Assembly (NCBI GenBank): GCA_017508285.1
Contig: JAFVZG010000102.1
Location: 1-33,482 of the forward strand
DNA from: Lentisphaeria bacterium
GTDB lineage: Bacteria; Verrucomicrobiota; Lentisphaeria; Victivallales; Victivallaceae
DNA: 33,482 bases
Reading direction: 5' to 3'
Below, piece after piece: positions 33,258 to 33,482 of the stretch. The notes beneath the pieces are model-generated. The model worked only from the letters and a program-made list of their open reading frames with translations, did no database searches and was not told where the DNA came from. Both the position numbers and the translations under genes were made by a program. How positions within the stretch are numbered: position 1 is the first letter of the stretch; each line of letters opens with the position of its first letter.

Positions 33258-33290
33258 GGAGCTGTATCAAGATTTTTGCAAAAAAACCGA

Positions 33291-33410
33291 GTGCAATCAA
33301 ATCGTTTTATCTTTTTGACAAATCATAATGTAAGTGATATATTCTATGTGTCGCCATAAAATGTGTTCATTCGCTCTTGTATGTATGTTTCACAAAATTT
33401 GGGACATTAC
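33291..33410 (+). repeat. Promoter-bearing 120-bp direct repeat, copy B
   Basis: The second copy of the repeat at 2518-2637 (5 mismatches, no gaps). It ends 21 bp before an ATG with a good SD, so here the promoter and leader are correctly placed to drive a gene. The mismatches sit at five positions near the -35 flank and in the mid-leader; 52 bases covering the spacer, -10 box and early leader are identical. Confidence 0.92.
33315..33343 (+). promoter_or_regulatory. Sigma70-like promoter in repeat copy B
   Basis: TTGACA (33315-33320), 17-bp spacer, TATATT (33338-33343), about 88 bp ahead of the oxidoreductase ATG. The long conserved leader may hold an operator, for example around TGTATGTATG and CAAAATTTGGGACA. 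Confidence 0.7.
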
Positions 33411-33431
33411 CAATATCTTCCGGAGAAAATC

Positions 33432-33482
33432 ATGGATAATATCAAAGTTGCCATTATCGGATTGGATACCAGCCACTCCACC
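33432..33482 (+). CDS. Gfo/Idh/MocA-family oxidoreductase, N-terminal fragment
   Basis: Only 17 codons lie in the window, and the frame runs off the right edge. They read MDNIKVAIIGLDTSHST, a Rossmann beta-strand and turn like the starts of Gfo/Idh/MocA sugar oxidoreductases. CCGGAG lies 6 nt before the ATG. The family call rests on a very short stretch plus the promoter context. Confidence 0.5.
   Translation, partial: MDNIKVAIIGLDTSHST

Follow-up and report, generated by a model that had tools for sequence, protein, structure and literature searches.

MITEs, which are non-autonomous transposons, often retain just the end sequences of their parent element. Near-identical promoters upstream of non-homologous genes were reportedly described by Matus-Garcia et al. 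in 2012 as putative mobile promoters. The Acinetobacter element MITEAba12 is 113 bp long and highly conserved, has no reported orientation preference, and carries a right-end promoter that has RNA-seq support in its host (PMC6382973). BrickBuilt of Porphyromonas gingivalis showed promoter activity in lacZ fusions and was itself proposed as a putative mobile promoter (PMC4596501). Among autonomous elements, insertion sequences (ISs) of the rare ISH6 family reportedly generate 8-bp duplications of an AT-rich target, AANATNTT (PMC3942029), and a survey that found them in 15 genomes described them as mainly haloarchaeal and suggested that they mark high-salt habitats (PMC9208149).

The locus described here lies in a window of 33,482 nucleotides, which is contig 66 of a MAG from an uncultured gut Lentisphaeria bacterium (1.87 Mb in 138 contigs, 71% complete). 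We consider it highly probable (about 0.88) that the repeat found twice in this window is a MITE of an uncultured gut Lentisphaeria genus, mobilized by ISH6-type transposition, that carries an outward promoter and has given rise to short forms by deletion.

A gene-less transposon at both ends of the window

The earlier note had observed that positions 2518-2637 and 33291-33410 align without gaps, in the same orientation, at 115 of 120 positions and that each stretch carries TTGACA-17-TATATT. Both observations are correct: the hexamers lie at 2542/2565 and 33315/33338, and the full ungapped match covers 2513-2637 and 33286-33410 at 95% identity. Because a 51-bp core with up to 3 mismatches occurred at 15 places in the same genome, versus 0 for a reversed-pattern control, and because other genomic copies gave BLAST E-values down to 1e-58, the duplication is far above chance. 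Where the unit begins and ends had to be revised. The 120 bases do not form a unit of their own; they make up one end of a small transposon without genes, whose left end (2436 on) had been omitted, and the approximately 60 leader bases described as conserved are actually a spacer plus the right terminal inverted repeat (2615-2638 and 33388-33411).

As a 131-bp query, the right half gave 39 matches in its own MAG at E <= 10, ~27 of them clear, and the left half, the 186 bp upstream in full copies, gave 43 (~34 clear). Compared together with their flanks, these matches form one element, and the whole-genome search proposed in the earlier note did uncover further copies: at least 22 distinct insertions, a lower bound because the element contains the start or end of many contigs. 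The MITE therefore accounts for a dispersed repeat at which Lentisphaeria assemblies break up. Right halves of 16 copies have a mean identity of 96.6%. Neighboring ORFs are mostly within 150 bp on either side, do not overlap the element, and are unrelated to each other, including genes for an epimerase, a GT2 protein, a member of an antibiotic acetyltransferase family, an aldolase, a Clp N-domain protein, an FGGY kinase, and an aldo/keto reductase.

The full-length element (locus L010) is 308 bp and runs from ATTATTGTCCCATTTGTTGTGATA to a right terminal repeat with the consensus TTTCACAAAATTTGGGACATTACC, in which L010 has TTCC for TTTC. Its terminal inverted repeats are imperfect, the right one reading inward as GGTAATGTCCCAAATTTTGTGA; the left end matches the reverse complement of the right end at 17/22 positions without gaps, and the two ends pair in the fold. 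A G+C-rich hairpin core occupies the center. Shorter forms are common, some having lost the central hairpin, with ...AAAATCC or ...CGGTGGCATCC joined to ACCGGG..., and others without the segment that joins the hairpin to the right end; the former would result from hairpin deletion, for which replication slippage is the probable mechanism. In some relatives the hairpin module (query 71-190) stands alone or twice side by side (for example, at G008:C56:18466-18764), and it may amplify separately too. With terminal inverted repeats, a target duplication, many mainly intergenic copies, a related autonomous element, and too little room for a transposase, the element has the features of a MITE.

Both window copies read along the forward strand. 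Copy A (2436-2638, 203 bp) has lost the central hairpin, and both its ends match L010. It consists of a left terminal inverted repeat (2436-2460), a sigma-70-type promoter directed toward the right end (2542-2570), and the right terminal inverted repeat (2615-2638), and it sits between two leftward genes, for an epimerase and a glycosyltransferase, so that its promoter is antisense into the glycosyltransferase 3' end. An ATTAC within the right repeat provides the glycosyltransferase (...ERINFDE) with its TAA stop at 2634-2636. Copy B (33286-33411, 126 bp) is missing its left part; its promoter (33315-33343) faces the start of a Gfo/Idh-like gene at 33433, making it the only copy in the window with a gene that it may drive. 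The core of its right terminal inverted repeat (33388-33411) is the same as in the ISH6-type IS ends of L221, L227, and L286, and the adjoining right-hand target sequence, AATATCTT (33412-33419), fits the target reported for ISH6 (PMC3942029).

The element transposes. An 8-bp direct repeat bordered all 11 copies in the MAG that retained both flanks, with 7-8 of 8 positions matching and one pair weaker in part. Since the element ends were fixed by inspecting these same 11 copies, true flank pairs were compared with permuted pairs at the same offsets: 81/88 positions matched, against a null of 42.1 +/- 6.1, and 0/20,000 permutations did as well. Among the 60 copies in relatives with a left end that could be placed automatically, 34 had a perfect 8-bp repeat and 40 matched at 7 or more of 8 positions. 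Copy A is flanked by CATCAAAA on the left (2428-2435) and on the right (2639-2646), while four same-genus genomes (G008, G004, G015, and G021) have both flanking genes and no copy at the orthologous site, with a single CATCAAAA at L279, L280, and L282 and CATCGAAA at L281. L279 is the clean empty site, and the other three carry a different insert in that gap. In a fifth relative, G001 (L283), another subfamily has inserted nearby in the opposite orientation. The different insert, CCCCGAACCCCATATCTTTTTACAAAAACTTTT ... CCCGCTTTTTTTGAAAAAGG, which lies between the epimerase and glycosyltransferase genes in L280, L281, and L282 (G015, G021, and G004), looks like a second dispersed repeat.

Matches were present in 20 of 40 genomes (the MAG and 39 relatives), nearly all in the same genus, with one marginal match in another family. 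A GTDB scan with the right-end 22-mer returned at least 110 stretches, and every one of the 80 matches listed came from Lentisphaeria, Victivallis vadensis DSM 14823 among them; phages, plasmids, and viral contigs gave no match. Over the right 115 bp, the MAG and the SIG80 cluster (L110-L187) appear to have one and the same consensus, although shared genes, in the few stretches compared, show 74-82% identity at the DNA level, which points to recent spread of this subfamily, perhaps between species.

ISH6-family insertion sequences as the likely parent

The ends of the MITE lead to a family of autonomous elements. An ISH6-family IS ends at locus L135, whose protein matches the NF041731 ISH6 transposase (E value of 7e-124; score of 413.7 bits, cut-off 240), and the last transposase codons overlap the same right end as that of the MITE. 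Genomes of the same genus contain fragments of ISH6 transposase, an ISH6-type IS is present in UBA5247, and V. vadensis has a near-complete ISH6-type IS (L286) plus many further ends. Termini of the V. vadensis IS and of the same-genus fragments, TTAATGTCCCAAATTTTGTGA ... TTCACAAAATTTGGGACAATAAC, are almost those of the MITE, with no shared sequence seen between MITE and IS outside the ends. Another locus, L284, is an internally deleted ISH6-type IS of ~470 bp, an intermediate of the kind that gives rise to MITEs.

Target choice also agrees with this parentage: the 34 perfect duplications match AANATNTT at 3.21 of 6 positions, compared with 2.62 +/- 0.19 after shuffling (9/5000), a significant but weak resemblance. 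These data support a model in which ISH6-family (Mutator-like DDE) transposases most likely move the MITE in trans, inserting it into AT-rich intergenic DNA with duplication of 8 bp. The host MAG, 71% complete and broken at repeats, yielded no transposase of the ISH6 or Mutator family. A search for an intact transposase in the same genus found none, and the near-full-length L135 and L286 each carry one stop codon. Recoding of a conserved in-frame stop, first seen in L135, was considered and rejected, as the codon is arginine in L286 and L218.

An IS256-family parent was also considered. One same-genus genome does have an intact IS256-family IS (L096, G017:C51) with ends close to GTAGTGTCCGAAGTTTTGCGCACA; these are only partly like the ends of the MITE, while ISH6-type ends match almost exactly. 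ISH6-family ISs are themselves residents of gut Lentisphaeria (L135, L286 of V. vadensis, and L218-L227), extending ISH6-type elements to animal-gut members of this class, including a cultured one.

The outward promoter

Right ends of the element fall into groups with unrelated leaders. Eight subfamilies have an outward-directed pair of TTGACA-like and TATATT-like hexamers, 16-17 bp apart and 64-68 bp from the right end, and the fraction of mononucleotide shuffles reaching both promoter score and position was 0-0.0033 per subfamily. Across eight representatives, the 42 bp that separate promoter from terminal repeat are 33-52% alike, about the random level for a gapped alignment. As promoter-bearing subfamilies supplied these representatives, and some internally deleted copies lack the -10 box, the promoter claim concerns subfamilies rather than every copy. 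Judged by these alignments, promoter architecture is kept while the sequence around it turned over. The promoter is probably active, to go by its sequence, and could drive a neighboring gene by chance.

The earlier note had also suggested a shared regulator that binds the leader, of which there is no sign; the leader is the very part that differs completely between subfamilies. In four subfamilies (L108, L111, L126, and L131) the -35/-10 spacer consists of a palindrome, ATCACA-ACTTA-TGTGAT, which is a possible operator and is degenerate in the window copies. As a general repressor site, ATCACA-N5-TGTGAT was rejected because other subfamilies lack it.

What keeps the promoter in place admits several answers. 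One, which we put forward tentatively, is that the promoter at its fixed 64-68 bp is a working part of the transposon life cycle: transcription that crosses the right end or the junction of an excised circle would promote or time transposition, and promoter and distance would be kept while the sequence up to the end turns over completely. An equally tentative alternative is that the promoter is a passenger without a role, descended from the transposase promoter of the parental IS. The ISH6-type IS of this clade does have TTGACA-17-TATTTT ~39 bp inside its left end, and the habit of MITEs to keep just parental ends would suit such an origin. Yet the IS promoter points inward near the left end, whereas that of the MITE points outward, 64-68 bp from the right end, and it survives although the adjacent leader was replaced several times.

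A third answer, the first one given for this DNA, is a family of mobile promoters retained because copies drive the genes beside which they land. The family is mobile, as shown by its target duplications, by empty sites, and by a parent IS that shares its ends, and it carries promoters, as consensus and a position kept across subfamilies with unrelated leaders indicate; its boundaries are those of the whole MITE, with the promoter as merely one component. Retention for host genes would also fit an outward promoter that is conserved and keeps a constant distance to the right end, and copy B, together with others among the ~10 of 22 copies in the MAG that face a co-directional gene (copy B added by eye), points at plausible clients, such as genes for the Gfo/Idh-like protein, an aldolase, and a Clp N-domain protein. 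However, the right-hand neighbor is co-directional in only 43/109 copies from relatives, so upstream-of-gene enrichment is absent, and with a co-directional gene at only ~40% of copies, spread to new genes is unsupported as the main role.

Between tandem genes, moreover, the promoter was antisense in 22/32 copies from relatives (P = 0.05) and in 27/39 when pooled (P = 0.024), and a looser left-end rule applied to fewer loci gave 24 to 7; the evidential weight of this bias is modest, because the gene calls were simply the longest non-overlapping ORFs. Copy A has nothing in sense to drive. Promoter hexamers also vary among resident copies, at 0.042 per site per copy versus 0.016 in the leader (partly one shared TTGACC variant), as expected if the host has no need of them. 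Neighbor orientation and hexamer variation together speak against selection for driving neighbors, which makes retention for host genes unlikely, and leave element-level selection, or inheritance, as explanations. We therefore favor a MITE whose promoter owes its persistence more probably to selection on propagation of the element itself, or to descent, than to any service to host genes.

A regulon element or riboswitch-like RNA leader of co-regulated genes would fit the strong fold of the whole element (z of -3.1 and -4.3), but the inverted repeats and hairpin core explain that fold, Rfam gave two matches that were both far under gathering scores, many copies are antisense or at gene ends, and target duplications surround them, all of which makes this very improbable. 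Segmental duplication (or recombination) involving a gene together with its promoter, which two same-orientation copies in one window might suggest and which the earlier note framed in terms of Gfo/Idh paralogues, is refuted by homology that stops at the element ends, unrelated flanking genes, the many copies, and the 8-bp target duplications.

Relation to known promoter-carrying MITEs

Promoter-bearing MITEs are already known, and near-identical promoters upstream of non-homologous genes, the hallmark of a putative mobile promoter, would describe under half of the copies studied here. Like the Lentisphaeria MITE, MITEAba12 is a short element at AT-rich sites with target duplications and an outward sigma-70 promoter near its right end, and it can supply codons to neighboring genes (PMC6382973); the Lentisphaeria element differs in having a hairpin core, ISH6-type ends, 8-bp duplications, and several subfamilies whose leaders are unrelated. 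Correia elements (CREE) of Neisseria are likewise promoter-carrying MITEs with terminal repeats, but they have other ends, and most of their copies are reported to lie directly upstream of genes, unlike those of the Lentisphaeria MITE (PMC10969869). BrickBuilt shares an intergenic location, an outward promoter, and leader and tail deletions, and it differs in having a core of 23-nt tandem repeats, other ends, and a host from another phylum (PMC4596501). The ISH6 family (p-MULT 2) has in common with the MITE the terminal repeats of its clade members and the AT-rich 8-bp duplicated target; its members are autonomous and encode a transposase, whereas the MITE encodes none and resembles them at the ends alone (PMC3942029). 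No description of a MITE family with ISH6-type ends was found in the literature searched, and an ISH6-type MITE in gut bacteria appears to be new. The fixed distance between promoter and right end is one unexplained regularity of the Lentisphaeria MITE, and it makes testable whether MITE promoters are kept for host genes or for the transposon.
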